DNA from: Actinomycetes bacterium
GTDB lineage: Bacteria > Actinomycetota > Thermoleophilia > BMS3ABIN01
Assembly: GCA_021790115.1 (NCBI GenBank)
Contig: JAJYIM010000010.1
Location: 1-51,195 of the forward strand
Length of the DNA: 51,195 nt
Reading direction: 5' to 3'
Numbering within the stretch: position 1 is the stretch's first letter; every line of letters starts with the position of its first letter. The position numbers were made by a program, and so were the translations under genes. Under the pieces are notes generated by a model. The model did not search any database. It was not told the DNA's origin and worked only from the letters and a program-made list of their open reading frames with translations. This document shows, one piece after another, positions 1,491-29,855 of this stretch.

Positions 1491-3104
1491 CTATCTTCCC
1501 TTCTCTACGACTGCCATCGCCAAAATCCGGTCGACGCGGAAGGTGCGGTCGGCCTGCCGCTCCAGGCAGAATGCCCGCAGCCCGAGGAATGTCCGGCCTC
1601 GGTATTCCATCTCCTCAACACAGTGAGGTTTGATTTTGCGCCGGGATTTGGTGTCGTCTGGCTTAAGGTACGTTATCTCCAGCAGCGAGCCGTCGGCGAT
1701 GGCCTGCTCCACCATTTCGATCTTGCCGGCCAGCGGCAGTTGATCTTCCGAGCGGCCGTACTGGTAGCCGGTGATGAATTTGACTACCCGCCAGTCCAGC
1801 CAGATATGCGACTTTTTGACCGGGGTCTTGATGTGGACCCCGCCCAGCGTGCGGCAGCGCGACAGCGCCACGTAGAGTTGCCCCGGGGCGAAGGTGCCGC
1901 GGCCGATGTCAACCACGACGGAATCAAAGGTCTTGCCCTGGCTCTTGTGGATGGTGACGGCCCAGGCCAGCTTCAGGGGATACTGGGTAAACTTGCCGAT
2001 GGCCTCGGACTCGACCGTCCTGGTCTCGTCGTTCCACACGTAACGGTGACGGCTCCAGGTAAACGGCTCGACCTCTTCGATGCCGCCGCCGGCGAGCTCG
2101 ACCAGCAGCGCTTCCTCGTCGATGTCCTTGAGGACGCCCAGGCTGCCATTGACCCAGCGGCCGCCTGAGTCATTATTAAGCAGCATCACGTGCGCGCCCC
2201 GCTTGACCTTTAGCCTCAGGTCTGCCGGCGCACTTTTCTGGTCGAAGTCGCCCTTCAGGGTGGCTTTGAAGATATATGTCTTCCCCTTGAGCCGCACCAG
2301 CTGCTGCTCGTTGCGCTTCTGCGCCATGTCGTTGGTTGTCGTCAGCTGAACAGCGTTTTCGGGCCAGCGCGCCTCATCGGCCGCCAGGCGGGCGTTGATC
2401 ATGCCGATCTGCTCATCGGTGATGCTTTTGTTGCGAACGCCGTTGAGCAGGCCGATGAAAAAATCGTCGGTCTGGCGGTAGACCTTCTCCAGCTCGATCA
2501 GCTCGAAGATGACCTCGCGGAATACGTCCGAGTCAAAGAAATATTCGCTCTCGTAGCGTTTGGCGAGAACTTCCCTGTCGTTGCGGGTCAGGACGGGCGG
2601 CAACTGATAGAGGTCGCCGATAAAGATCATCTGGATCCCGCCGAACGGGGCCTTTTTCTTTCTGCCGTTTTTTCTTAAGAACAGATCCACCAGGTCAAGC
2701 AGATCGGCCCTGACCATCGAAATCTCGTCAATCACGATGGCGTCCAGCTCCTTGTAGACCCGATTCTTGACCGCCTTGATCTTGCCGGCGGTCACATCCG
2801 GCCGGAAGCGGAAGAACGAATGGATGGTCTGGCCGGACACGTTGACCGCCGCCACTCCCGTCGGCGCCAGGACGGCGATCTGTTTGCCCGTCACCGCGCG
2901 GAAATGCTCCAGCAGTGTGGATTTGCCGGTGCCGGCCCTGCCGGTGATGAGGATGTTGGCGCCGGAGTTATCCATCATGTCAAGCGCCTGGCTGAACTGC
3001 GGGTTTAAATCAAGCGCGGCCGAAGCCGGTTGGGAAGGCGTTATCGTCTGTTTTACTGTTTTCCGCGCATGGTTTGACGGCGTTCGCGTCTTTTCTTCTG
3101 GCAT
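1491..3104 (-). CDS. PIF1-like helicase with C-terminal WYL-like domain
   Basis: A 537-residue superfamily 1 helicase of the PIF1/RecD type, expected to unwind DNA 5'-3'. Walker A is GRAGTGKS (55-62). DEISMVRADLLD is Walker B/motif II, GDLYQLPPV is motif III, and the late TIHKSQGKTFD with YVALSRCR gives motifs V and VI. The last 70 or so residues (LLEITYLKPDD, RKIKPHCVEEM, FRVDRI) resemble a WYL domain, a ligand- or nucleic-acid-sensing fold. The first 30 residues are polar and probably disordered. The start at 3104 has AGGAG seven bases upstream. uvrB follows downstream on the same strand after 177 bp, so repair-related work is plausible but unproven. Confidence 0.88.
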   Translation of the reverse strand: MPEEKTRTPSNHARKTVKQTITPSQPASAALDLNPQFSQALDMMDNSGANILITGRAGTGKSTLLEHFRAVTGKQIAVLAPTGVAAVNVSGQTIHSFFRFRPDVTAGKIKAVKNRVYKELDAIVIDEISMVRADLLDLVDLFLRKNGRKKKAPFGGIQMIFIGDLYQLPPVLTRNDREVLAKRYESEYFFDSDVFREVIFELIELEKVYRQTDDFFIGLLNGVRNKSITDEQIGMINARLAADEARWPENAVQLTTTNDMAQKRNEQQLVRLKGKTYIFKATLKGDFDQKSAPADLRLKVKRGAHVMLLNNDSGGRWVNGSLGVLKDIDEEALLVELAGGGIEEVEPFTWSRHRYVWNDETRTVESEAIGKFTQYPLKLAWAVTIHKSQGKTFDSVVVDIGRGTFAPGQLYVALSRCRTLGGVHIKTPVKKSHIWLDWRVVKFITGYQYGRSEDQLPLAGKIEMVEQAIADGSLLEITYLKPDDTKSRRKIKPHCVEEMEYRGRTFLGLRAFCLERQADRTFRVDRILAMAVVEKGR

Positions 3105-6579: not shown

Positions 6580-8016
6580 TTATGCAGACTGCTTCAGTGT
6601 TTCAATCTTGTGCCGGCAGAGACTGATGAGGGAACTGGTGTCGAACGCCTCCAGCTCAGTTTCCCAGGCTCCCGGCGGATTTTTGTCAAAACTGCGGCCG
6701 GCGTTTTGATATTCACGGATGGCGTGCTTAAGCCGCCCGGTTTGCTCGAACACGCTTGCCAGGTGAAAATAGGCCAGGCTGAGATTGGCATCAAGGTAAA
6801 GCGCGCGGCGGAAATCTTCCACCGCCTCGTCCAGCTCGTCCGCCTTTTCGTGCGCCAGCCCGAGCAGAAAAAATATTTCCGCATCAGCTGCGCCTGACTC
6901 AAGCGCCTGCTTCAGCATGCCCGCCGCCTGGCCAAACTCGCCCCTGTCAATGTGCAGCCTGGCTTTGTCTTTCGCCTTCTGCCGGGAAGGACGGGCATCC
7001 TCGTCATCGCGCCGGCGCGCATCCGGCTGTTTTTTATTCTCCGGCGCGGGCTGCCCGCCGCAGCGCCGGTCCCCAGCGGCAATCCGCCGCTCAAGGCCAA
7101 CTCCCGCCGGCAACCCTGAACTGCACAGGCGCCGGTCCGGGATGAAACAGCGGCTGCCCTCTTCCTCAGCGCCCGGCTTTCGATAAATGAAGGCGTCCCC
7201 CAGCTCCACCAACGCATATTTTGCCGACATCTTCCAGAGCGTTTCCGAATGCCCCAGGAAAAGAAAGCCGCCGGGGTTCATAACGTCAGAAAAATGCTCT
7301 ATGACAAATTTGGCCGTTTCGTGCGTGAAATAAATAATGACATTGCGGCAAAAAATTGCGTCACAGGCGCCAAAGCTGTCGGCCGGCAGGGGATCTTCAA
7401 CAAGATTGTGGCGCTGAAACCGGACCAGCCGGCTTAAGGCTTCAACCACCCTGTAGCCTCCGTCTTCTCGTTGAAAATACCGCCGCCGATGCAAACTGTC
7501 AACAGCGGCAAGCTTGCGCTCCGGGTACCAGCCCCGGTTTGCCTGCCGGAGGGCTTCTTCGCTCAGGTCGGTGCCAAGGATCTGAACGCTCCAGGAGTCA
7601 GGCTGCGGCAGAACATCAAGGACTGACATGGCGACTGTATAAGGCTCTTCGCCAGTGGAACAGCCGGCGCACCAGAACCGCAGCAGCCGCTGGGGCGCTT
7701 TGCGCCGGACCAGGTCCGGAATAACATATTTTCGCAAGGCCTCAAACTGGGGCGGATTGCGAAAAAACTGCGTTTCCTGCACCGACAGGTGCTCAAGCAG
7801 CCTTCTCAGCTCCTGGCGGCCGCGGAACTTGTTGCTGATGAAGTCATAATAATTGCTTAAGTCGGCGGCGCCGACGATGCGGGCCCTGCTGGCAAGGCCC
7901 GCTCTTAGCACCTCCGCCTTGTCGTGACCGAAGTAAATGCCGCTCGATTGCTCGATTAACTGGCTGAACCGCCTGAAATCTGATTCTGATAATTCGAACT
8001 GCCTAGACATCGCCAT
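6580..8016 (-). CDS. cheR: CheR methyltransferase with C-terminal TPRs (WspC-like)
   Basis: CheR methylates glutamates on chemoreceptors using S-adenosylmethionine. The first 280 residues hold the CheR all-alpha N-terminal domain and the methyltransferase fold (FWCAGCSTGEEPYTVAM, then CDAIFCRNVIIYFT). Residues about 345-470 hold tetratricopeptide repeats (AEIFFLLGLAHEKADELDEA, LDANLSLAYFHLASVFEQTG). CheR with TPRs is the arrangement of WspC. A charged linker (about 300-345) separates the two parts. The start overlaps the stop of the upstream receiver-GGDEF gene (ATGGCGATGTCTAG), so translation is probably coupled; ATG at 8010 is an equally good start. Confidence 0.93.
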   Translation of the reverse strand: MAMSRQFELSESDFRRFSQLIEQSSGIYFGHDKAEVLRAGLASRARIVGAADLSNYYDFISNKFRGRQELRRLLEHLSVQETQFFRNPPQFEALRKYVIPDLVRRKAPQRLLRFWCAGCSTGEEPYTVAMSVLDVLPQPDSWSVQILGTDLSEEALRQANRGWYPERKLAAVDSLHRRRYFQREDGGYRVVEALSRLVRFQRHNLVEDPLPADSFGACDAIFCRNVIIYFTHETAKFVIEHFSDVMNPGGFLFLGHSETLWKMSAKYALVELGDAFIYRKPGAEEEGSRCFIPDRRLCSSGLPAGVGLERRIAAGDRRCGGQPAPENKKQPDARRRDDEDARPSRQKAKDKARLHIDRGEFGQAAGMLKQALESGAADAEIFFLLGLAHEKADELDEAVEDFRRALYLDANLSLAYFHLASVFEQTGRLKHAIREYQNAGRSFDKNPPGAWETELEAFDTSSLISLCRHKIETLKQSA

Positions 8017-9520
8017 TGCTGCTCCAGGTCACGACCCGGTTTTTGCCGGCTTCCTTGGCCTGGTATAAAGCAGTATCGGCTGCCTGCACCAGCTCGGCGC
8101 TGCCGGCGGCCCTGCACTCCGGGAAACCGGCCACGCCCAGGCTAAGGGTAACGCTGCGGCCGCCGGGCAGATTAAAATCATGACCTTCGACGGCGGCGCG
8201 GATGCGCTCGGCCACGTCCCTCGCCTGGCGGGCGCCTGTCTGCGGCAACAGCACAGCAATTTCTTCGCCGCCGTAACGGGCGACTATATCAATGTCCCGC
8301 ACTTCGCGCGTGATTACCGCCGCCAGGGCCACTAGAACCTCATCTCCTACTTGATGTCCAAACATGTCATTTATCATTTTAAATGAATCAATATCAGCCA
8401 TGACCAGGGCCAGATCGCCATGGTAACGGCGGACACGATGGAATTCCTGTCCCAGCAGCTCATAAAAATGACGGTGATTATAAAGGCGGGTAAGGCCATC
8501 CGTGATGGCCAGCCTGCGGGTGCCTTCATGCAGGCGGGCGTTGTCAACGACAAGGCCGACGGGATTATCTATTATTTTTAGCAGCCGCTGCGTTGCTGCC
8601 AGAAAAGCGTCCGGCAGGGGGCTGGTGAGAATCAAAACGGCAATGGTCTCGGCGCGGGCCTGGAGAGGTATCACCAGCATTGATTTGATGCTGTCCAGCC
8701 CGGGGCGCTCCCCTTTAAGAAAGTCCGGCTCCGAGTCAACTTCGACCTCGAGCTGGTTGCCGCTGGCGCCCGGCCTCAGGTACGGGGCGGCCGCCCCGAT
8801 TGCCTGCCGCCGCGCCTCTTCAAAATAGGAATTGCCCACAGCGCAATGAACGTGGATAAAGAGCCGTAACTCTTCGATCAAAACCAGCGCGCAAACATGG
8901 CAATCCGTCACCTGAGCGATCAGCGTCAGCACCGAGTCGATCGTCACAGTGCAATCCTCGCTGAGAGTATTCAGCTGGCTGATCTCGTTGACGAGGGTTG
9001 CCTCGTAAAGCTTGCGGTCCAGCAGGTCGTTTACCCGCGAAAGCACATCCACTTCCTGTTCTCCGGCGGCTTGCCGGTTTGGCATCGGACAGCGGGGGGC
9101 TTCGGCCTCGGCGTCCGCGCCGCCGACCTCCAGCAGTTCATGCACCGTGCCCGCCAGGCCGGCAAGCTGAAAATCCTTGGTGACGTAGCGGTCGGCACCG
9201 GTCTTTAGCCCCCAGAACTTGTCTGTTTCCTGAGTCTTGCTGGTCAGCATGATCACAGGAATGTGCGCCGTGCGGTAATCGTCCTTCAGCAGGCGGCAGA
9301 CCTGGTAGCCGTCCATTTTTGGCATTTCGATATCAAGCACTACCAGATCCGGATTTTCCTGAAATGCGCTTCTGGCCGCTTCGATGCCGTCGCCGGCAAT
9401 GATCACGTCGAAGCCCTCGCGACCGAGGACCGCCATAATTATCCGCTGCTGGGTGGGGCTGTCTTCCGCTACCAGGATGCGGTAGGGACTCTTCCTTTCC
9501 TGTAACGAAGAAACCTGCAT
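8003..9520 (-). CDS. Response regulator diguanylate cyclase (REC-GAF-GGDEF)
   Basis: A 505-residue WspR-like output protein. The receiver domain (1-130) has the phospho-acceptor D63 in VVLDIEMPKMDGY. A GAF-like domain fills about 170-330. The GGDEF domain has GGEE at 417-420 in ARYGGEEIAVLLP and an RxxD inhibitory site (RDID, 408-411) at the canonical spacing, so product feedback is expected. It should make cyclic di-GMP from two GTP when phosphorylated. It lies between cheB and cheR in one operon, so the CheA of this cluster is the likely kinase. WspR itself has no GAF domain, so the extra sensor domain is a difference from the textbook system. Confidence 0.93.
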   Translation of the reverse strand: MQVSSLQERKSPYRILVAEDSPTQQRIIMAVLGREGFDVIIAGDGIEAARSAFQENPDLVVLDIEMPKMDGYQVCRLLKDDYRTAHIPVIMLTSKTQETDKFWGLKTGADRYVTKDFQLAGLAGTVHELLEVGGADAEAEAPRCPMPNRQAAGEQEVDVLSRVNDLLDRKLYEATLVNEISQLNTLSEDCTVTIDSVLTLIAQVTDCHVCALVLIEELRLFIHVHCAVGNSYFEEARRQAIGAAAPYLRPGASGNQLEVEVDSEPDFLKGERPGLDSIKSMLVIPLQARAETIAVLILTSPLPDAFLAATQRLLKIIDNPVGLVVDNARLHEGTRRLAITDGLTRLYNHRHFYELLGQEFHRVRRYHGDLALVMADIDSFKMINDMFGHQVGDEVLVALAAVITREVRDIDIVARYGGEEIAVLLPQTGARQARDVAERIRAAVEGHDFNLPGGRSVTLSLGVAGFPECRAAGSAELVQAADTALYQAKEAGKNRVVTWSSNGDV

Positions 9521-9534
9521 ATCAAATAATCTGC

Positions 9535-10632
9535 TTAGGGCTGAACATGGTCATCAGAAAAAAAGCTGCAGATGGTGCCGCCAATTTCAGGAAGCGGGAC
9601 AACGCCCTCCACAGCATTCAGTTTGATGGCTTCCTGCGCCATGCCAAAGATCACCGAGGTTTTTTCGTCCTGGGCGAGCGTATGGCCGCCGCGTTCGTAG
9701 ATCGCCCGCATGCCTTTGGCGCCGTCGCTGCCCATGCCGGTGAGGATGAGCCCCAGGGCGCCGGGTCCGTACGACCTGGCAACCGATTCCAGCAGCACAT
9801 CCGCCGAAGGCTTGTGCGGGCCGGGAGCCTGTTTGTCAACCAGCGCTATCCGCCGCTCCAAAGTGACAGTCATGTGGATGGCATCGGGCGCAATTATTAC
9901 CTCCCCCGGCATGATGGAGTCACCGTGAACCCCTTTTTTGACTTTTAGGCGGCAGTTGCCATTGAGCCACTCCACCAGCCCATCGGTAAAGCCTTCCGCA
10001 ATATGCTGAACAGCAACGATGCCGGCGGGGAATTCCCGCGGCAGGTCGCTTAAAATTACCTGCAGGGCCTGCGGCCCCCCGGTAGACGAGGCAATCGCCA
10101 CCAGCTTGATACTGGCGGCGCGGCTGACTTGTGCTAGTCCTTCACCAGGCTGCCTTGTCAAACGTCCGCGCGGATGAGTAATCACCCGCACGCGGGAAAG
10201 CTGTTTGACCTTGCTTCTCAAAACGGCGGTGGCGGCCTCAAATCCTTTTTGGGAAGAAGTATCCGGCTTGGAGAACACATCGACGGCGCCGGCGCCCAGC
10301 GCCCTGGCTGCATTGGCAGAATGGGTTATTGACACCACGGAACTCACCACCAGAATGGGAACGGGCGTATAGGCCATGATCTGTTCGATGGCCATAATCC
10401 CGTCCATGACCGGCATCTCGACATCCATCGTCACCAGATCCGGCTTCAGCAGCGCCGCTTGCTGGACCGCTTCCCGGCCGTTGGCCGCCATGCCGACGAC
10501 GCTGATATCAGGGTCCGCCTCAAGCACGCGCCGGAGCATCAGGCGAACGGTGGCGGAGTCATCAGCCACCAGCACCCTCACGCCTGTTGCTCTTTTCGGC
10601 GCGCTTGCACTTGTTATGCCGCTGCTTTCCAT
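9535..10632 (-). CDS. cheB: Protein-glutamate methylesterase CheB
   Basis: CheB removes methyl groups from chemoreceptors when its receiver is phosphorylated by CheA. The receiver carries the acceptor Asp in LVTMDVEMPVMDG. The methylesterase domain keeps the catalytic triad: Ser in AIASSTGGPQAL, His in VAVQHIAEGFT and Asp in GMGSDGAKGM. Length is 365 residues from the ATG at 10632, which lies four bases past the cheA stop. A frame reaching 10683 would overlap cheA needlessly. Its place in the operon equals that of wspF. Confidence 0.95.
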   Translation of the reverse strand: MESSGITSASAPKRATGVRVLVADDSATVRLMLRRVLEADPDISVVGMAANGREAVQQAALLKPDLVTMDVEMPVMDGIMAIEQIMAYTPVPILVVSSVVSITHSANAARALGAGAVDVFSKPDTSSQKGFEAATAVLRSKVKQLSRVRVITHPRGRLTRQPGEGLAQVSRAASIKLVAIASSTGGPQALQVILSDLPREFPAGIVAVQHIAEGFTDGLVEWLNGNCRLKVKKGVHGDSIMPGEVIIAPDAIHMTVTLERRIALVDKQAPGPHKPSADVLLESVARSYGPGALGLILTGMGSDGAKGMRAIYERGGHTLAQDEKTSVIFGMAQEAIKLNAVEGVVPLPEIGGTICSFFSDDHVQP

Positions 10633-10636
10633 TAGC

Positions 10637-12985
10637 CTATGCCACCAGGCGTTTGACTGTGTCAAGCAAGTTTTGTTGATCAAAACTGCCTTTTATCACA
10701 TAAGCGTTAGCCCCGGCTTCGATGCCGCGGCGCCGGTCATCCTCACTGTTTCTGGAGGTCACCATCACGACGGGAATGTCTTTGATCTCATCGCTTTGGC
10801 GGATAGCCGTGGCGAGGCCGATGCCATCCATCCCCGGCATCTCGATATCCGTGATCACGCAGTCAACCGGCTTTTGCAACAGATGAGAAAGAGCGTCATT
10901 GCCGTCGACGGCAGTTTCGACCTCGTACCCGGCTGCCTCAAGAATGTTCCGTTGCAATTCCCGCACTACCAGCGAATCCTCTACAACGAGCACAGACGGC
11001 TTCACCCCGGCGGCGCTTTCTTTTTTCGTTTTCAGCTCCGCAGCCGGACGGCGGCTCCGTCCCCCCTCCTTGACATCGCGCACCAGCGCGCTTGCGTTCA
11101 AAACCAGCACCGCCTCGCCATCGCCCATGATCGTCACTCCCGCCAGGTACGGCATGCGGGGCAGAAACCCGCCCAGTGGCTTGATCACCAGCTCTTGCTG
11201 CCCGATCAGTTTCTCTACCTCCAGGCCGAGACGGTAATTCTCGGCGGTCACTACTACCACCTGAATCTTCTCCCGGCGGCCGGCGGCCGCGCCGCCCAGA
11301 AATTGCGTCAGGTCAACCAAGGGAATGGCGCTGCCCCGCAGCAGAAAACCGGGATGGTTGCCAAGAAACTGCAGCTCCTGCTCGGGGACCGACACGAGCT
11401 CCTGGACCGCGGCCATGGGCAGGATAAAGCGGGAGCCTGCCGATTCCACCAGCAGGCCGTCAATCACCGCCAGGGTAACGGGCAGCGACACCAGAAAGCG
11501 GGTGCCTGCGCCGGGTGCTGAGCGCACAAGCACTGACCCTTCCAGCTCTTCGATGTTGTTTTTGACCACATCCAATCCAACCCCGCGGCCGGAAATCGTC
11601 GTCACTGACTCGGCCGTCGAAAACCCCGGACGGAAGATAAGCTCCACCGCATCCTCTGCGCTAAGCTCCTGGCCGGCCGGCAGCAGCCCTTTCCGCTCTG
11701 CCGTCGCCTTGATTTTCTCCGGATTGATGCCAGCGCCATCGTCGGCAATCTCTATTTCCACCCGGTCGCCGCGCTGGGCAGCGCTCAGCCTGATCAGGCC
11801 CTGCTCCGGCTTGCCCTGCGCGGCGCGGTCAACCGGCAGCTCAATGCCGTGGTCAACCGAGTTGCGGATAATGTGCATCAGCGGATCGGCCACTTGTTCC
11901 AGGATGCGCTTGTCCATCTCTGTTTTTTCTCCCGATATCTCCAGCTTCACTTTCTTGCCGCAGGAGCTGGCGGCGTCCCGCACCACCCGCGGGAAAAGCG
12001 AGAAGATCGAGGCCAGCGGCAACATGCGCACGCGCATCGCCCGCTCCTGGAGGTCATCAAGCGCGACCCTGCGCGCGGCTGTATTTTCCTTCAGGCCAGA
12101 GGCGGCTGCCCCCAGCCGGTTCACGGCCGTGCCTAGGGCATCCTCCATTTTGTTAACCTGCTGCCGGATTTCATCAAGCGGCTGCCCGCCGGCGGCGGCA
12201 TTAATCTTGGCAAGCTGCTCAGACAGGGAAACAAATGCATTTTGCAGCTCTGCCGTGTGCTTGTAAATCACGGTCATTTCCCGGACGCGGTCCTCAGCGT
12301 TCGACTGGTTGACAAGAATCTCTCCCATTAAATTAAGAAGCTTGTCAAGTTTTTTGATATTTACGCGGATGGTGGATTCGCTCCGGCCCGCTGCCGGAGC
12401 GCCGGTTCTGGAAACCGGCCGGTTCGTTGCCATGGTCCCGGCCTGAGATTTGGGCGGCTGCGGCGCGGCGGCCGCTGCAGGTTCAACTTCCCCCTGGCTG
12501 ACGTCGCGCAGCCTGCCGGTTGCGCCGGCGGGCTTTATCTCTGCCGCTGCGTCTTCGCTTTTTTCCGGCGCAGCGTTCCCGGCGCCGTCCCCTCCGGAGC
12601 CAATCTCTGTCAGGCGGTCGAGCAGTGCCGATACATCGGAAACAGGAGCGGGCTGATTCGGCCCTTCCCCGGGAAGCAATTCTTCGATACGGTCAAGCGT
12701 CTCCAGCAAGAGATCTGCCACTTCGGCGCCCATTTGCATCTTGCCCTTCTGCACCGTTTCGAGGATACTCTCGACGCGGTGGGCCAGCTCCCGGATCGCC
12801 TCCAGCCCCATCATGCCGGCGGAGCCTTTCAGCGTATGCGCCTCGCGAAAAAGCTTTTTCAGCAGCTCCTGGTCGCCGGGCGCACTCTCCAGAGACATGA
12901 GGCCGCTACTTAAAACCTGCAGCCTTTCCAGCGCTTCAGCCCTGAAAGTCTGCAGGAACTCATTATCGTCAGTCCAGTTATTCAT
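10637..12985 (-). CDS. cheA: Hybrid chemotaxis histidine kinase CheA with C-terminal receiver (WspE-like)
   Basis: A 782-residue CheA. The Hpt domain has the phosphorylated H50 in REAHTLKGSAGMMG. An Ala/Pro-rich linker (about 130-205) replaces an obvious P2 domain. The dimerisation helices, the HATPase (IIRNSVDHGIELP, then GRGVGLDVVKNNIEELEG) and a CheW-like P5 domain follow. The last 120 residues are a receiver with acceptor D713 in CVITDIEMPGMDG. CheA fused to a receiver is a hallmark of alternative-function clusters such as Wsp and of some type IV pilus systems. No separate cheY lies in the window. Confidence 0.95.
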   Translation of the reverse strand: MNNWTDDNEFLQTFRAEALERLQVLSSGLMSLESAPGDQELLKKLFREAHTLKGSAGMMGLEAIRELAHRVESILETVQKGKMQMGAEVADLLLETLDRIEELLPGEGPNQPAPVSDVSALLDRLTEIGSGGDGAGNAAPEKSEDAAAEIKPAGATGRLRDVSQGEVEPAAAAAPQPPKSQAGTMATNRPVSRTGAPAAGRSESTIRVNIKKLDKLLNLMGEILVNQSNAEDRVREMTVIYKHTAELQNAFVSLSEQLAKINAAAGGQPLDEIRQQVNKMEDALGTAVNRLGAAASGLKENTAARRVALDDLQERAMRVRMLPLASIFSLFPRVVRDAASSCGKKVKLEISGEKTEMDKRILEQVADPLMHIIRNSVDHGIELPVDRAAQGKPEQGLIRLSAAQRGDRVEIEIADDGAGINPEKIKATAERKGLLPAGQELSAEDAVELIFRPGFSTAESVTTISGRGVGLDVVKNNIEELEGSVLVRSAPGAGTRFLVSLPVTLAVIDGLLVESAGSRFILPMAAVQELVSVPEQELQFLGNHPGFLLRGSAIPLVDLTQFLGGAAAGRREKIQVVVVTAENYRLGLEVEKLIGQQELVIKPLGGFLPRMPYLAGVTIMGDGEAVLVLNASALVRDVKEGGRSRRPAAELKTKKESAAGVKPSVLVVEDSLVVRELQRNILEAAGYEVETAVDGNDALSHLLQKPVDCVITDIEMPGMDGIGLATAIRQSDEIKDIPVVMVTSRNSEDDRRRGIEAGANAYVIKGSFDQQNLLDTVKRLVA

Positions 12986-13062
12986 CTCTTCAAGAAAGAA
13001 CCGGGCGCACTTAACGTGCTTCCATGCCCATTGCCGCCGGCCGGCAGACGCCTGCTCCGCGC

Positions 13063-14736
13063 CTATTCCAGCCTGAACTCTGCGATAGCTTCCCTCAGTT
13101 CAGCCGCGTACTTGCTTAAGCGCACCGTTGCCTCCTGGGTCTGCTTGGCGCTGACAGCCTGCTGGCGGCTGGCGTCGGAAATGTTTGTCATCGCCACCAC
13201 CACCTGCTCGCTGGCGCTCTTCTGCTGCTGGGTCGCCACTGAGATTTCCTTGGCGGCCGCTGTGTTGTCGGCAATCACAGCCATGATGCTTTCCAGCGAG
13301 TGGCCGGCATTGGTGGCCAGCTCAACGCCTTGCTGCACTTCCTTGGCGCTTTCTTCCGTGGCCATGATCGTGCTGTTGGTTTCCGCCTGAATCTCGTTGA
13401 TGAGCGCCTTGATCTTGTCTGTTGCGCCCACACTCTCTTCTGCAAGGCGCCTGATCTCGCTGGCGACCACGGCAAAGCCGCGGCCCTGCTCGCCGGCGCG
13501 CGCCGCTTCCACAGCGGCGTTCAAGGCCAGCAAATTGGTCTGATCGGCAATATTGTTGATAATCTCTAAAATTGTGCCAATATGCTGCGACTTCTCTCCC
13601 AAAGCAAGGGTCTTTTCCGCCACCTTGTTGACCTTGTCATTGATTGTATGCATGCCCTCGATTGTGGCTGTCACTGCACCCTGCCCCTCGCCTGCGTGAG
13701 TGAGCGTTTCTTCAGCCACCCGCGCCACCGACTCGGCAGTTTCGGCAATCTGCTTCGCGGTGCCGGCCAGTTCCTCGATTGTGGCCGTGGTCTCGGTGAC
13801 GGCTGCCGACTGTTCTGAAGAGGCGCTCACCTGCTGCTCGATGGCAGACAGGATTTCGCCCGAGGCGGCAGAAGTCTGCTCTCCCATCTCCCGGATCTTG
13901 GCGCTCAGGTTGCCGAGGCCATCGGTCATTTCGTTGAAGCTTCCGGCCAAGGCTCCCAGCTCATCGTTGGATCTAAGTTCGACGCGGCGGGTGAGGTCGC
14001 CGGCGGCGATGCGCCCGATGGCAGCCACCACATTTTTCAGTGGCCTGGTGACAGCGACCTTGAGCGTCGCCATCAGGCTTATCAGCACAAACGCGAGCGT
14101 CCCCAGCAGGAATAAAATTATCTGCAGTTTCGCGGATGATACGCTGCTGTCAACCTGCTGCATTGAGGTCGAGACAATCACCGCCCCCCGCATATTGTTA
14201 TTGGTTCCATGGCAGCCCTGGCAGACTGCTTCGTTCGGCAATGGGTGGATCTCGGTGAGCACCCGGCCGGCGCCGTCATTCTGATAATAAACCGCCGGCT
14301 CGCCGGTGGAGAGCGCCTGCGTCAGTTTCTGCGCCGTCAGCCCCGTGACACGGCTGGAGCCGCTAAAGACCTCGGAGCCATCGGTCTTGACGATCATGAT
14401 CCGGTTCAGATCGCCAATGCCTTTCAGATCCTGGAGCGCCTTCACGGTGAAATCAGGCTTTCCCGCCAGCATGCTTGTCTTGATGCCGTTGGCGACCAGT
14501 TGACTGGCAACATGATTGTTGTTTTCTTGCTGCGCCACCAGGTTGCTTTCTTCCTGCCTGATGTTGATGACCGCAAAAACGCTCAGGCCCAAAACCAAAA
14601 GCAGAGTGACAAGCCCAAGGATCTTGGCTTCCACGCTGGTCTTAAAAATGTTCCTGAATCTCCGGGCGCGGGCGCCGCCAAAATTCCCGCTTTTCAGCGG
14701 CGGAACGCTGCTGTCAATTGCCATTTTTGCCCCCAA
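13063..14736 (-). CDS. Methyl-accepting chemotaxis protein with extracytoplasmic c-type heme motif
   Basis: A 557-residue receptor. Transmembrane helices lie at about 38-58 and 204-228 and bracket an external sensor of about 145 residues. That sensor ends with VCQGCHG: C172-x-x-C175-H176 is a perfect c-type heme attachment motif. A HAMP domain follows (about 229-282), then the signalling domain with the conserved tip ([20 protein letters not shown]). Heme-binding chemoreceptors are known from Desulfovibrio and Geobacter and respond to oxygen or redox state; that this one does so is inference. Its start overlaps the cheW stop by 23 bases. M5 at 14724 is an alternative start. Confidence 0.93.
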
Positions 14737-15304
14737 ATTTATGATCTTGATCTAAAGCGGTTGCAATCTCTGTGCCTGTAAAACGGGCTTTCTCGATTAG
14801 CTTGCCGGTGTCAAGCACTCCTGACAGCTTCCCGTTCAGGTCAACCTGAGCAACGATAACCGCGCGCTGCTCGCCGAGCGTGCGCAGGGATGACTCCAGA
14901 GCGGCGCTGGGCGCGTTTTCTGCTCCTGCCACTTCCTCAACCAGCAGGCCCAGCCGCACGCCCGCTGCCTCCACTATCACAATTCTGTTTTGAGGGCTGA
15001 TTTCCAGCCCGGGATGTGATAATAGCACCGCCAGATCCGCCACGGCCAGGACCGCTCCTCTTAAGTTAATCAGCCCGCGGATGCTCGGGGGAGCGCCGGG
15101 CAGCCAGGTAATTTGCGGCACTCTGATAATCTCAAGCACCCTGTCTATCTCCACGACGAAATATTCGCCGCAAACGAGCATGACAATGAAGGAAACTGTT
15201 TCCCGCCCCCGATCCGGAAGCGGGAGAAGCTCAGCTTCTGGCAACTGTGGGAAGGTTTTCTTGTTCAATGCTTCCATTCGCCCTAAAGTCCGTGTGGGAG
15301 GCAT
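14714..15304 (-). CDS. cheW: Chemotaxis coupling protein CheW
   Basis: CheW bridges receptors and CheA. The 196-residue protein has the SH3-like CheW fold: [19 protein letters not shown], then [20 protein letters not shown], then [12 protein letters not shown]. The first 35 residues are an extra, poorly conserved tail. It is the first gene of the operon cheW-mcp-cheA-cheB-REC/GGDEF-cheR. A strong bidirectional terminator at 15382-15428 separates it from rpsA upstream, so the operon must have its own promoter in 15305-15380; no clear promoter is seen there. Confidence 0.9.
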
Positions 15305-24302: not shown

Positions 24303-24607
24303 AAAAAAATTTTAACAAACAGCCCGCCCGGCAGGCTGCTTAGAGCAATTTCGGCCCTTGCCAAAGTTCCCTCTCTGAATTTGCGTATGATAATAGTAAA
24401 GGTAAAGATAATGAAGCGAGCGGCCGTTAGGTTAATTATTCCTTTAACCGATGCTTATAGAGAAGGGGCTGGGTGCTATTTAAAGTTTATGCTATTTGAA
24501 GCCTGACTGACAGTCTTTCCCGGGCCGCCGCAGCAAAGCGCCGGCGGCAAAAATCCACAATAAACATCATTGTAATGAGCAAGAACAAAAGAAAAAGGGG
24601 AGGCGCA
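24303..24607. other. Divergent intergenic region between the DUF512 gene and the S53 peptidase gene
   Basis: At 24320-24338 the minus strand has CAGCCTGCC pairing with GGCGGGCTG (8 of 9 pairs), followed by TTTGTTAAAATTTTTTT and directly by the DUF512 start. That is terminator-like and could attenuate the gene. The rest is AT-richer than the coding DNA around it and probably holds promoters for both genes; I could not choose one with confidence. Confidence 0.45.
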
Positions 24608-27481
24608 ATGGGGCTTTGCCCGCTAGTCAAGAAAAGCCTGGCTGTAATGGCTTTCCTGTTCCTGGTATCATTTTCGTTGACAACAAGTCTGCTTCTTGCT
24701 TCAAAAAGCCCTTCGGCTTCCGTTTTGCTTCCTCAGGGAAAGTCCGCCATTGCGATGGAGGGAATGGATAAAGGGGAGCTGCCTGCCGGCGCGCCGGTGA
24801 AGCTGGCCGTAATATTATCATTGCGAAACCAGCAGGGCCTGGATGACCTGATCAGCGCCCAAAATACTCCCGGCTCGCCCTCTTACCGTAAATTTCTTAC
24901 CCCGCAGCAGTTTCTTGCCGCCTACGGCCCCAGCCAGTCCGATTACGACTCCGTGGCCGCCTTCCTGGCCGGAAACGGCTTTGCCATTAAGACGACTCCG
25001 GGCCGGCAACTGATAATCGCCCAGGGGACTGCCGCCCAGGCGGAGAATGCGTTTAAAACCCAGCTCCATGTTTTTAACGTTCAAGGCAAACAGGAATACG
25101 CAAATGTGAGCGCGCCGCAAATCCCGGCCCGGCTGGCCGGCGCCGTCAAGGCAGTCCAGGGGCTGGACTCAAAGAAGCTGCACTCAAATCTTAAATCCGG
25201 ACCGGCAGGCAGCTCGGTCTCGGCCCTGACCACACCCCCCGGTTACAGCCCCGCGCAGATCTCAACGGCATATGACTATCCAAACCAGCATGGCTACAGC
25301 GGCAGCGGCAAAACGATTGCGGTGGCCACGGCCGGCGACTTTTACGATTCCGACCTGCAGACTTTTGAAACCCAGTTTGGCTACCAGCCCGCGTCACTGA
25401 ACCGTGTTTGCATTTATGGCGCATGTCCCTCTGTCGATGACCCCGAGACAACCCTGGACGTGGAATGGTCCACTTCCCTGGCTAGCGGCGCCAACGAGCT
25501 TGTCTATATGGTCCCGGCCTACAACGGCGGCGTTTACTCATCAGATCTGACCAATGAATATAACCAGATCGTAACCGACAATACGGCCGATGTGGTCACC
25601 TCCTCGTGGGGAGGATGCGAGGACGCTAACGAGGCTCAGCAAGACGACGGCATTTTTGCCCAGGGGGCCGCCCAGGGTCAGACCTGGCTGATTGCCAGCG
25701 GCGACTATGGCTCCAACTGTGATCCCAAGGGGACTTTTGGCGTTGATTATCCGGCTTCCTCGCCCTATGTCACGGCCATGGGAGGCACCTCCCTTTCATT
25801 GAATAGTTCGGGTGGCATCTTAAGCGAGACCGCCTGGAGCGGTTCGGGAGGCGGAAGTTCAACCATCGAGTGGAGGCCCAACTGGGAGTACGGTTCCCAG
25901 TACTTCACAAGCGGGAAGCGCTGGACGGCAGATATTGCCATGGACGGCGATCCATCCACCGGCATGCCTTATACTTATAATAGCGCCTGGCATCAAGCCG
26001 CGGGCACGAGCATTGACGCCCCCTTCGCCTCAGCCCTGGCGGCGGAGATCGGACAACATGGAAACAACAGGCTGGGCATTTTTGCGGCCAGGATCAATCA
26101 GCTGGCAAACTCATCCGGTCATTCTTCTGTGCTTCACGACATCACCCGGGGGAACAATGGGGCCTACTCGGCGGGCGGCGGCTGGGATCCGCCGACGGGA
26201 TGGGGCAGCCCGGATGGTTATATGCTTCTGCTAAATTATCAACACCTGGTCCCGGCCCGGAACTATTTCTGGACCTGGTATGACGCCACCGCCATGAAAG
26301 ACTGGGTGCTGATGGCCAACCCTCCGGGCTCGGGCAAGAACTTAAACTTTAACCTCTCGATCAGCGGCCGGACCGAGCCCCTGGGCAGCAATTTCGGCCT
26401 GGGCCCGGGCGCGGTTCCACCGGGGAGCTCCCTCACTTCAACCTATCCGGGGGTAATCGGAGGCCCGGTAATGGCAAGCTCGGAAACCGGGGACAAAGCC
26501 ATCGTCAGCCAAAGAAGCCTGCTGGGAAGCTCGTTTGAAGAAGTGCCGGGCACCGACGCCAGCAAGCTGTCAAGCCATTTCTATTGGACCTGGTATGACC
26601 AGCAAAGCCCGGGCATGACCGACTGGGTGCTTGTCGCCAACCCGGGCTCCGACCACACTGGTAATTCCCAAGGCACAGTTTCAGCATTGATCAAGATAGC
26701 CGGCATCCCGGTCTGGTCAGGAAATATCGCCCCCGGGAAAAACGTAACGCCAACTTTCCCCGGAAAGATGGGAGGCCCGGTTGAGGTTACTTCCACAGGG
26801 GGGGACGTGATGGCCTCCCAGCGGGTGCTCTCAAGTTACGGCGCCGCCTTTAACGAGGTGCCGGGCATTCCAGCCGGCGAGCTTTCTGACCGCTACCTTT
26901 GGACCTGGTACGACATGCAAAGCCCGGGCGCCAGGAACTGGGTGCTTGTCGCCAATCCGGGGTCAAATGCGGTTACCGCCCATATCAGGATTGCCGGCGC
27001 TATCCGCTGGAGCGGCACCCTCGCCCCGGGACAAAGCGCCACCCCGACTTTCCCCGGAACGATGGGCGGCCCGGTGGAGGTCTGGACCGATGGCGGCGGC
27101 AAGGTGATTGCCACCCAAAGAAGCATCTTCGGCCCCTCCTTTGAAGAAGTGCCGGGCTTGGCCGCATCGTCAAGCGGCGGCTACTCAGCACTTGCCAGCG
27201 ACTACAACTGGAGCTGGTATGATCAGCAAAGCCCGGGGATGAACAACTGGGTGCTGATCGCCAATCCGGGCAGCTCTCCGGTAAGTGGCGTTACCATCAA
27301 GATCGGCGCCAGGACTGTCTGGGGGCCGCAAACCATCGCCCCCGGGGCCAGAGTCACCCCCACTTTCCCGGCCCAGATGGGCGGCCCGGTTGAGGTAAGC
27401 GCCAGCGGCAATATCGTTGCCTCCCAGCGCGTGCTTTACAACGGCTACTTTAACGAGGTGCTGGGGACGGTGCTACGCTAG
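24608..27481 (+). CDS. Secreted S53 (sedolisin/kumamolisin-type) peptidase with four C-terminal repeats
   Basis: A 957-residue exported protease. A signal-like hydrophobic stretch (about 9-32) is followed by a pro-kumamolisin domain (about 45-185). In the S53 catalytic domain E280 and D284 lie in PETTLDVEW, D366 in LIASGDYGS and S468 in AAGTSIDAPF, the complete Glu-Asp-Ser set with the oxyanion Asp. The calcium site (HDITRGNNG, then GGGWDPPTGWGSPDG) is present. From about residue 553 come four repeats of about 100 residues with FWTWYD, WVLxANPG, PTFPGxMGGPVEV, ASQR and FxEVPG. Start: GGGGAGG lies 5 bases upstream of ATG 24608; an ATG at 24575 is less likely. Confidence 0.92.
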   Translation: MGLCPLVKKSLAVMAFLFLVSFSLTTSLLLASKSPSASVLLPQGKSAIAMEGMDKGELPAGAPVKLAVILSLRNQQGLDDLISAQNTPGSPSYRKFLTPQQFLAAYGPSQSDYDSVAAFLAGNGFAIKTTPGRQLIIAQGTAAQAENAFKTQLHVFNVQGKQEYANVSAPQIPARLAGAVKAVQGLDSKKLHSNLKSGPAGSSVSALTTPPGYSPAQISTAYDYPNQHGYSGSGKTIAVATAGDFYDSDLQTFETQFGYQPASLNRVCIYGACPSVDDPETTLDVEWSTSLASGANELVYMVPAYNGGVYSSDLTNEYNQIVTDNTADVVTSSWGGCEDANEAQQDDGIFAQGAAQGQTWLIASGDYGSNCDPKGTFGVDYPASSPYVTAMGGTSLSLNSSGGILSETAWSGSGGGSSTIEWRPNWEYGSQYFTSGKRWTADIAMDGDPSTGMPYTYNSAWHQAAGTSIDAPFASALAAEIGQHGNNRLGIFAARINQLANSSGHSSVLHDITRGNNGAYSAGGGWDPPTGWGSPDGYMLLLNYQHLVPARNYFWTWYDATAMKDWVLMANPPGSGKNLNFNLSISGRTEPLGSNFGLGPGAVPPGSSLTSTYPGVIGGPVMASSETGDKAIVSQRSLLGSSFEEVPGTDASKLSSHFYWTWYDQQSPGMTDWVLVANPGSDHTGNSQGTVSALIKIAGIPVWSGNIAPGKNVTPTFPGKMGGPVEVTSTGGDVMASQRVLSSYGAAFNEVPGIPAGELSDRYLWTWYDMQSPGARNWVLVANPGSNAVTAHIRIAGAIRWSGTLAPGQSATPTFPGTMGGPVEVWTDGGGKVIATQRSIFGPSFEEVPGLAASSSGGYSALASDYNWSWYDQQSPGMNNWVLIANPGSSPVSGVTIKIGARTVWGPQTIAPGARVTPTFPAQMGGPVEVSASGNIVASQRVLYNGYFNEVLGTVLR

Positions 27482-27669
27482 TAAATGGCGGGCTTTCTTC
27501 GCGCAAACAGGTGGATGGCAGGCTGCTGCACAGGCTGAAAGCCTGTGCCTACCGTCCGTGCGCGGCAGGTAGATGGCAGGCTTGGTAGATGGCAGGCTTT
27601 TAGCCTGCCTCTGGGAGGGTTTATCTACGCACACGCCCCCGTCTGCACAGGCTAAAAGCCCGTGCCTGC
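27482..27669. repeat. REP-like palindrome block with an 86-bp unit (copy 1)
   Basis: The gap after the peptidase gene holds several palindromes built on GCAGGCT/AGCCTGC and GCACAGGCT/AGCCTGTGC, for example 27528-27548. Bases 27584-27669 form an 86-bp unit that recurs at 29863-29948 with only two differences. Inside the unit, two hairpins (GGCAGGCTTTTAGCCTGCC and GCACAGGCTAAAAGCCYGTGC) are linked by a segment that ends in ATCTAC, complementary to the GTAGAT at the left end. This gap of 310 bases holds no gene. Confidence 0.85.
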
Positions 27670-27791
27670 TTTCCTTTCGGCGTGTAAATATGAAAGAGCT
27701 AAAGATGTCCTTCCCGTTGCCGAAAAAGCGTGTGAACGTTAATTCGTTTCAGTTTGCATCAACTCAAATTCTGCGCTCAGGAGGCTTTGCG

Positions 27792-29855
27792 ATGAGGATG
27801 GCAAAAAAGACACAAGGTTCAAAGTCCACTTTTAACACAAAATACGCGACATGGGCGAGCCGGGCCGGCATAGGACAAAAAATTTTTATCGGGCTGGCGG
27901 CGATGGCTTTAATGGCAATGATTATGCTGCCGTCGACGGCATTTGCCGGAACGGCAAACAATTATGCTGCAACCGGTGGCATCTCTGCCGCTATTGGCAA
28001 CATTCAGCCTAATGGCTGGACAAATAGCAACTCTCCGACTATTAGCGCTGATTACTACCTCTACAACGGCGCAGTTGGAACCCCCTCTATCAAACTTGAT
28101 GGAAGCACACTATCTGGCTGCAGCATAACGTCTGCAGTATCCGGTTCCACCACTTCGGGCAGCATTAGCTGTCCGGCCGCCGGTCTTACAGATGGAACCC
28201 ATTTTATCTCGGTCTCAGTTTACGCCGGCGATATAGATTTATTCAATGCCGGCACTATCACATTCGAGGTTGACACAGTCACGCCCGCAGTCACCAACGT
28301 CCTTCCCACCGGAACCATCACGACCACCCTTACTATCATAAGCGCCGACTACTCTGACTCGGGCTCGGGCATCAATACTTCCTCGGCTACAGTAAAGCTT
28401 GACGGAAACACTTTAAACGGCTGCACGGTTACTGCTACCTCGGTCAGCTGTCCGGTTGCGGGACTGGCGCAGGGGTCTCATACGATCTCCGGCTCTGTTT
28501 CAGACAATGCCGGCAACATAACGCCGATAGGCGGATCTTTTACAGTCAGTTCCCCGCCGCAGTCCCCCGGCCTTGGGACCAGCTACTTCTGGACCTGGTA
28601 TGACAATATCGAGAGCGATGACTGGGTGCTTCTGGCTAACCCAAGCACAGCCATCCAGAACCTTACTTACAGCCTTTCAACTGCCGGCAGATCCATGGAC
28701 CTAAGCAAATACTCAGGCGGAGTGGTGCCCCCGGGAGGCAGCATCACCCCTATTTATCCCAACCTGATGGGAGGCCTGGTCAAAGCAACTGCAAGCGGGA
28801 TCGGCGGGGTGGTCTCGCAGCGCATCCTCTGGCCCAAGGGCGGCTCTTCCTTAGAAGAAGTGGTGCCAGGAACAGAGGAGGCAAATCTCTCCGATCATTT
28901 CTGGTGGCCGTGGTATGATCAGCTAAGCAGCGGCTATGCTGACTGGGTGCTGGTGGCCAACCCTTCTTCGACAAATACAGTGCATGTGATTGTCTCCTTT
29001 GCCAACCGGGCAGACGGACAGATGCAAAGCGCAGAGTCTGACATTGCCCCGGGAAAGACCTGGTACCCTGCTTTCCCCGGGAAGATGGGAGGGCCAGTGG
29101 AGGTAAAGGCGTACAAAAAAGGAGGCTCCTGGCCGGCAGACAAAATGAGCGTGGTTGCCTCTCAAAGGGTGCTGTCCGGTTACGGAAAGGGCTTTAATGA
29201 GCTGCCCGGCGTCGCCGACAGCGACCTTAAAAGCAGCTACCTGTGGACCTGGTACGACATGAAGAGCGCCGGCACCAATAACTGGGTCATGATCGCCAAT
29301 CCGCCCACCAACGCAGACGGAAGCCAAAGCGCCCCGATATACTGGGAGATTGACGTTGCCGGAAAGCCGCTTGCCACAGGCGGGCCTCTCGGGGCAGGGG
29401 CAAGCGTTACTCCCACCTTCCCGGGGACAATGGGCGGCCCCCTGGAGGTAAAAACCTACTCAGATAAAAACCAGACTGCCCCGGCAAGATCGATTGCCTC
29501 ACAAAGAAGTATCTGGGGGCCGTCATTCGAGGAAGTGCCCGGCACCGGCATGCTGGCAAAGAACTATAACTGGACCTGGTACGACATGAAGAGCGCTGGA
29601 ATGCAAAACTGGGTGCTTATCGCCAACCCTGACTTAAACAAGCAGGACCCGCCAGTTGCAGCCACGGTAACGATTGACAAGACCACCTACGGGCCCTACA
29701 GCATTGCCCCGGGAGGAAGCGTAACTCCCACCTTCCCCGGCGCAATGGGGGGCCCCGTACAGGTGGCAGCTTCCGCCACCGTGATTGCCTCCCAAAGGGT
29801 CCTTTATAACAGTTACTTTAATGAAGTGGTGGGGACAGAGCCGCCTGTTGCGTAA
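27792..29855 (+). CDS. Secreted protein with Ig-like domains and the same four-repeat array as the S53 peptidase
   Basis: A 687-residue exported protein with no enzyme motif I recognise. After a basic N-terminus and a hydrophobic signal segment ending near STAFAGTAN (about 33-56) come two Ig-like domains (about 57-260). Each has the pattern of a substrate-like KLDGxTLxGC stretch, then ISCPAAGL or VSCPVAGL, then GTHFISVSV or GSHTISGSV. From about residue 265 come four units with FWTWYD, DWVLLANP, PTFPGxMGG, ASQR and FNEVxGT. Start: AGGAGG at 27779-27784 sits 7 bases before ATG 27792. The open frame back to 27573 runs through palindromic repeats and is rejected. The gene lies between two copies of an 86-bp repeat. 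Confidence 0.85.
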   Translation: MRMAKKTQGSKSTFNTKYATWASRAGIGQKIFIGLAAMALMAMIMLPSTAFAGTANNYAATGGISAAIGNIQPNGWTNSNSPTISADYYLYNGAVGTPSIKLDGSTLSGCSITSAVSGSTTSGSISCPAAGLTDGTHFISVSVYAGDIDLFNAGTITFEVDTVTPAVTNVLPTGTITTTLTIISADYSDSGSGINTSSATVKLDGNTLNGCTVTATSVSCPVAGLAQGSHTISGSVSDNAGNITPIGGSFTVSSPPQSPGLGTSYFWTWYDNIESDDWVLLANPSTAIQNLTYSLSTAGRSMDLSKYSGGVVPPGGSITPIYPNLMGGLVKATASGIGGVVSQRILWPKGGSSLEEVVPGTEEANLSDHFWWPWYDQLSSGYADWVLVANPSSTNTVHVIVSFANRADGQMQSAESDIAPGKTWYPAFPGKMGGPVEVKAYKKGGSWPADKMSVVASQRVLSGYGKGFNELPGVADSDLKSSYLWTWYDMKSAGTNNWVMIANPPTNADGSQSAPIYWEIDVAGKPLATGGPLGAGASVTPTFPGTMGGPLEVKTYSDKNQTAPARSIASQRSIWGPSFEEVPGTGMLAKNYNWTWYDMKSAGMQNWVLIANPDLNKQDPPVAATVTIDKTTYGPYSIAPGGSVTPTFPGAMGGPVQVAASATVIASQRVLYNSYFNEVVGTEPPVA

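Follow-up and report, generated by a model that had tools for sequence, protein, structure and literature searches.

The six-gene chemosensory operon on the minus strand of the window (the whole 51,195-nucleotide stretch of DNA analysed here) probably encodes a dedicated, motor-independent pathway of the ACF kind, in which a heme-sensing input would act through a receptor array on cyclic di-GMP in a non-flagellated actinobacterial family. The initial annotation had read the genes as a chemosensory operon without motor genes that probably signals through cyclic di-GMP, and this part of its interpretation is supported. By its traits, the operon is best filed as a new variant among ACF-type chemosensory systems: it combines a multidomain response regulator and a CheR protein with TPRs, and the host has no flagella. 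The publications consulted contain no description of a heme c receptor together with a REC-GAF-GGDEF protein in Actinomycetota.

Gene content, conservation and host genome

The six open reading frames of the operon run from position 15304 to 6580 (minus strand) and encode, in this order, CheW, a methyl-accepting chemotaxis protein (MCP), CheA, CheB, a diguanylate cyclase and CheR. CheW (14714–15304; PF01584, E = 9e-26) is the single coupling protein, and it also opens the operon in relatives. The MCP (13063–14736; PF00015, PF00672 and PF21563) consists of a transmembrane helix, a predicted periplasmic heme Cache domain, a second transmembrane helix and HAMP and signalling (MCPsignal) domains; in an alignment of starts, its likelier start is at 14724 (MAIDSS). 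CheA (10637–12985) is a hybrid kinase in which Pfam matches and the family alignment delineate Hpt, H-kinase_dim, HATPase_c and CheW domains, with the Hpt His50 codon at 12836–12838, and a C-terminal REC domain (10655–10993, with Asp713). CheB (9535–10683) carries REC and CheB_methylest domains and likely starts at 10632, which leaves a 4-bp gap to cheA. The cyclase (8003–9520) is made up of REC (9152–9478), GAF (GAF_3/GAF, 8549–8944) and GGDEF (8036–8509) domains. It displays both hallmarks of a diguanylate cyclase, the active-site motif in the form GGEE (8261–8272) and an RxxD inhibitory site, or I-site (8288–8299). The last gene encodes the methyltransferase CheR (6580–8016; CheR_N and CheR, PF01739 5e-57) with C-terminal TPRs (TPR_16 5e-11). 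All of these features are on the minus strand. The gene set, the domains and the added GAF domain reported earlier agree with the positions of the open reading frames and the Pfam matches, and all six frames have the extents originally given to them, except that CheB and the MCP likely start at the positions given above.

The catalytic residues, which the initial annotation had read as intact (including GGEE and RxxD), are so at every position checked and are invariant in the family. Among 13 aligned family sequences there is no variation at His50 of the CheA Hpt domain or at the phospho-acceptor Asp residues in the REC domains of CheA and of the cyclase (Asp63 in the latter), and GGEE and RxxD are invariant in 12; the cyclase of one further relative ends at a contig edge before the motifs. 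The six genes are under purifying selection, with dN/dS values of 0.08–0.24 against a congener, similar to those of PolA (0.16) and UvrB (0.06).

The nearest relatives of the CheA come from Thermoleophilia, Gaiellales, Actinomycetes and BMS3Abin01 bacteria, in agreement with the actinobacterium-like host proposed earlier. CheA is present in 14 of the 19 genomes of this Thermoleophilia-related family, and the aligned family CheAs are 53–77% identical to that of the window. Wherever a contig spans the operon, relatives from several genera keep the order CheW-MCP-CheA-CheB-DGC-CheR. In five of the 19 genomes, CheA was not found. As one of these is given as 100% complete, the system is dispensable. 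In the window and several congeners, the operon is flanked by ribosomal protein S1 and CoaE or UvrB; a second setting, with a CpsB/CapC gene upstream and gatA-gatB downstream, occurs in one congener and also in other genera. Of 397 Actinomycetota genomes sampled across the phylum, 28 contain a CheA relative at E < 1e-90.

The host genome (1.81 Mb, 97.6% complete) contains one CheA and one MCP; this and the other whole-genome counts rest on family searches. The operon therefore represents the only detected chemosensory array of the genome, and this array has a single receptor. FlhA was found neither in the host nor in any of the 19 family genomes (0/19) by a search that was positive in E. coli, B. 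subtilis, Caulobacter and Thermotoga. Together with the lone CheA and the lone MCP, the lack of FlhA argues for a dedicated non-motility pathway. The genes cheY, cheC and cheD are absent from the operon. The lack of cheY from the gene set and of a motor, both pointed out in the initial annotation, thus hold for the operon and for the family, respectively, and a second copy of the operon near flagellar genes, which it had considered as a counter-case, did not turn up.

The heme Cache receptor and the array

The sensor of the MCP carries a c-type heme attachment motif (CQGCH, residues 172–176; 14209–14223, minus strand), which was overlooked previously; all 12 aligned family MCPs have its CxxCH. 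The motif is located in a periplasmic domain of the sCache_heme type (14122–14559, minus strand), bracketed by the two transmembrane helices and matched by PF21563. Both by sequence and by profile (2e-14 and 9e-13), this domain matches the Geobacter heme sensors with PDB ids 3B42 and 3B47. The same two structures are the best matches in a fold search with the predicted sensor model (pLDDT of 79; E = 3e-9), and the large rmsd of this comparison is due to the domain swap in both targets. The Cache domain of WalK gives a TM-score of 0.72 with the model. The MCP therefore displays a Cache fold with CxxCH, as an sCache_heme receptor should. Outside the family, matches to the sensor domain are few and weak (2 genomes).

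The heme ligands of Geobacter GSU0935 are reported to be His144 and Met60, and the equivalents of both are invariant in the family. When one counts from Cys140, Cys143 and His144 in the profile alignment, Met60 corresponds to the Met in column 30 of the sensor alignment, namely Met89 of the MCP (codon 14470–14472, minus strand). A cytochrome c assembly protein is encoded in 18 of the 19 family genomes. We infer that the predicted heme domain is loaded with heme.

For GSU0582 and GSU0935, NO binding and a redox-dependent exchange of a heme ligand have been proposed, and a 2026 preprint describes a signalling sCache_heme domain with NO-sensor-like properties (PMC12889525). For these reasons, redox or NO is our best guess for the cue, and by this analogy the cue is likely redox state or NO and not surface contact. 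The survey in the same preprint reports sCache_heme domains to be rare or absent in Actinomycetota (PMC12889525), and the MCP would place a heme Cache receptor in this phylum.

The signalling domain of the MCP contains a 14-residue insertion per arm compared to Tar and Tap of E. coli, as do three WspA proteins, and is by sequence a class 40H domain. This class has been assigned to WspA receptors (PMC2577667) and to the receptors of ACF systems (PMC10746217). The MCP also contains methylation-like sites, which fit adaptation by CheR and CheB. The combination of CheR-TPR with multidomain response regulators is a reported hallmark of ACF clusters, and CheR-TPRs were reported to be almost absent from Gram-positive bacteria (PMC3447774); the operon places one in a Gram-positive phylum.

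The cyclase output and the proposed pathway

The output of the operon is probably cyclic di-GMP, as predicted from the cyclase, which is the only separate response regulator of the operon besides CheB (CheA also carries a REC domain). The host genome has a cyclic di-GMP network, in line with this output. It contains 12 GGDEF matches, and the 11 that lie beyond the operon weigh against the explanation favoured here. The genome also has nine HD_5 (HD-GYP type) matches; these are present instead of EAL phosphodiesterases, none of which were found in the genome. PilZ was considered as the effector, and no PilZ domain was found in the 19 family genomes. Genes for PilB and for PilT-like and PilC-like proteins are present. 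PilB carries an MshEN domain with both 24-residue motifs and the 5-residue spacer, in which a key Arg of motif I is replaced by Pro and a key Gln of motif II by Arg. Because of these two replacements, binding of cyclic di-GMP by PilB is uncertain. The CpsB gene found beside the operon in other genera hints, as a guess, at a polysaccharide target.

In the proposed pathway, the sole membrane receptor would bear c-type heme on its extracytoplasmic Cache domain. A redox change or the binding of NO would displace the axial Met, as suggested by GSU0582 and GSU0935, and this displacement would alter the 40H receptor-CheW-CheA array. CheA would then phosphorylate the REC domain of the REC-GAF-GGDEF protein, and the phosphorylated cyclase would make cyclic di-GMP, with the I-site limiting and the GAF domain tuning its activity. 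The REC domain of CheA itself probably either acts as a phosphate sink or contributes to adaptation, while CheR-TPR and CheB would reset the methylation of the receptor. The targets of cyclic di-GMP are probably surface structures, either exopolysaccharide or type IV pili, the latter via the MshEN domain of PilB. HD-GYP-type proteins would remove the messenger. If true, the coupling of chemotaxis arrays to cyclic di-GMP extends beyond the proteobacterial Wsp system and need not involve sensing of surfaces. The system is unusually clean, with one receptor, one kinase, one operon cyclase and no motor, and adaptation in a redox-to-second-messenger pathway is therefore directly testable.

Relation to Wsp and other chemosensory systems

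In its mode of action, the operon is likely similar to Wsp, in that a chemosensory array drives a diguanylate cyclase, but its identity with Wsp is not supported, since published traits of Wsp are missing and the trees keep the two apart. It is very unlikely that the operon is a genuine Wsp system (an orthologue of WspA-F and WspR that actinobacteria share or acquired by transfer, and that senses surface contact), even though the functional parts are the same (MCP, CheW, CheR-TPR, CheA with a C-terminal REC, CheB and a REC-linked GGDEF protein), the receptor is of the 40H class and Wsp CheAs rank among the top matches in the plasmid collection. Synteny of wspA-wspF, the published criterion for Wsp, is found neither in the window nor in its relatives, and the single cheW of the operon leaves it without WspD, whereas none of 794 wsp operons lacked WspB or WspD (PMC8552884). 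The references were eight Wsp-type loci carried on plasmids and chromids. Those of Azoarcus, Cupriavidus, Mesorhizobium, Novosphingobium, Variovorax and a Hyphomicrobiales bacterium have the order MCP-CheW-CheR-CheW-CheA-CheB-DGC, and two from Burkholderia have no adjacent cyclase. The reference WspA sensor is a four-helix bundle (4HB_MCP_1 in Azoarcus) in place of a heme Cache domain, and the WspR-type output is REC-GGDEF in place of REC-GAF-GGDEF. The REC domain of the cyclase is 26–31% identical to WspR, 49% to a Holophagales cyclase and 47–50% to CheY-like single-REC proteins encoded in other che clusters of actinobacteria. In the REC tree, which is based on 128 columns only, the family groups with the Holophagales protein (97/99) apart from WspR (AU p of 0.12 for family with WspR); one sequence, L192, is misplaced there (branch of 7.4, probably a wrong start) and should be ignored. 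In the final CheA tree (49 rows, made with a careful method; a quick 61-row tree had long branches) and in the four-protein concatenation, the family and Wsp form separate 100/100 clades, with the deep order not resolved. No tree, whether single-gene, four-gene or REC, joins the family with Wsp. AU tests do not reject such a clade (p of 0.21 for CheA and 0.15 for four proteins), and as these values stay above 0.05, orthology with Wsp is not claimed to be rejected. Given the single CheW, the other gene order, the heme Cache, the REC unlike that of WspR and the separate clades, the earlier suggestion that the host has its own version of Wsp is not supported.

A leftover flagellar chemotaxis system, kept after the flagella were lost, is less plausible still and hardly credible. 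Many Thermoleophilia are flagellated (PMC10746217), and the AU test does not reject a clade of the family with flagellar-type CheAs (p of 0.40; clades with other candidates are likewise not rejected). However, REC-bearing CheAs stand apart from the flagellar-type references in the best trees (99/98 for CheA, 100/100 for four proteins), so the CheA phylogeny suggested as a check in the initial annotation separates the family from flagellar classes there, although not by the AU test. Furthermore, none of cheC, cheD and cheY is in the operon, the receptor is 40H and not the 44H of F1, CheR-TPR is reported as characteristic of ACF systems (PMC3447774), and FlhA is absent from all 19 family genomes. 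The remaining alternative concerns the output: type IV pilus motility, or another CheY-like target encoded elsewhere, is unlikely (if less so than the two origins just discussed) to be the main output, with the cyclase as a side branch. This reading is favoured by the presence of PilB, PilT-like and PilC-like proteins and by the single-REC CheY found in other actinobacterial che clusters. Yet the cyclase is the only response regulator of the operon beyond CheB and the CheA REC, and it is kept in the operon of every relative.

With a cyclic di-GMP output as the preferred reading, it is possible, and we suggest it tentatively, that non-flagellated Actinomycetota evolved their own chemosensory pathway to cyclic di-GMP, independently of Wsp. 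In an actinobacterial che cluster, the local CheY would have been replaced by, or fused to, GAF-GGDEF, and the receptor would have gained a heme c Cache domain, giving a single adapting sensor of redox or NO.

Among known systems, Wsp shares with the operon the 40H receptor, CheA-REC, CheB, CheR-TPR, a REC-linked diguanylate cyclase output and the lack of a motor. The order CheW-MCP-CheA-CheB-DGC-CheR, the one CheW instead of two, the heme Cache instead of 4HB, the GAF domain within the cyclase and the non-WspR-like REC set the operon apart. The ACF class has in common with it CheR-TPR, a multidomain response regulator, a 40H receptor and the absence of a flagellar marker. Other actinobacterial CheA-REC clusters (for example L169, L175, L178 and L063) likewise contain CheA-REC, CheB, CheR and a related MCP signalling domain, and their CheY-like REC proteins share as much as half of their residues with the REC of the cyclase. 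Unlike the operon, these clusters end variously in REC-only, REC-GAF or short REC-GGDEF proteins and often have two CheW, and CxxCH is absent from all MCPs recognised in the actinobacterial che clusters examined. Among the loci examined, the combination of a heme receptor with REC-GAF-GGDEF is confined to this family. Similar to the MCP, GSU0582 and GSU0935 of Geobacter are HAMP-MCP receptors with a periplasmic Cache domain, CxxCH and an axial Met. They are two among the many MCPs of a motile bacterium, whereas the receptor described here is the only one of its genome and is encoded in the same operon as a cyclase, and its phylum is reported to have few such domains or none (PMC12889525).

Heme-sensor domains and the cyclic di-GMP network

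Besides the domain of the chemoreceptor in the window, its genome (G000) carries two more sCache_heme-type domains. One (L208, contig C31, 6515–6934), with a CQKCH motif, lies within a 660-residue protein that, judged by its sequence, reads as a HAMP–histidine kinase–REC protein; the other (L212, contig C22, 4613–5020) lies within a 963-residue reading frame. Heme sensing seems to be a theme of this lineage. Another genome from the class of G000 encodes, beside che genes, a HAMP-GGDEF protein (L050, 15418–17373) that contains CxxCH and is possibly a direct heme-to-cyclase fusion. In G000 and its family (19 genomes), GGDEF and HD_5 domains are numerous in the cyclic di-GMP network, while EAL and PilZ domains were each found in none of the 19.

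Other genes in the window

A 968-residue protein (24575–27481) contains a pro-kumamolisin activation domain, and the 760-residue protein that comes after it (27573–29855) has no Pfam match. At 1491–3104, a WYL domain is found on a PIF1-like helicase, with UvrB adjoining.

Chemosensory clusters in other taxa

Clusters of the order MCP-CheW-CheA-CheB-CheR-(REC-GGDEF) occur in other Actinomycetota (L063, titled Acidimicrobiales in its record, and L188) and are a separate, second chemosensory–cyclase association within this phylum. A Holophagales cluster (L077, 9251–18262) includes CheA, CheB, a REC-...-GGDEF protein and CheR; the window cyclase is 38% identical to this REC-...-GGDEF protein over the latter's length, and the REC of the Holophagales protein clusters with those of the cyclases of the window family.

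Wsp-order operons

In another family of the window's class, a CheW-CheR-CheW-CheA-CheB cluster (L044, 7345–13380) has the Wsp order without a cyclase and adjoins aspS-gatA-gatB; within the family to which the window belongs, several genera likewise have gatAB downstream of the window-type operon. Plasmid-borne operons of Wsp order, cyclase included, are present in Alphaproteobacteria (L189, L190 and L194; Mesorhizobium, Novosphingobium and Hyphomicrobiales), whereas a 2021 survey described Wsp as restricted to Beta- and Gammaproteobacteria.
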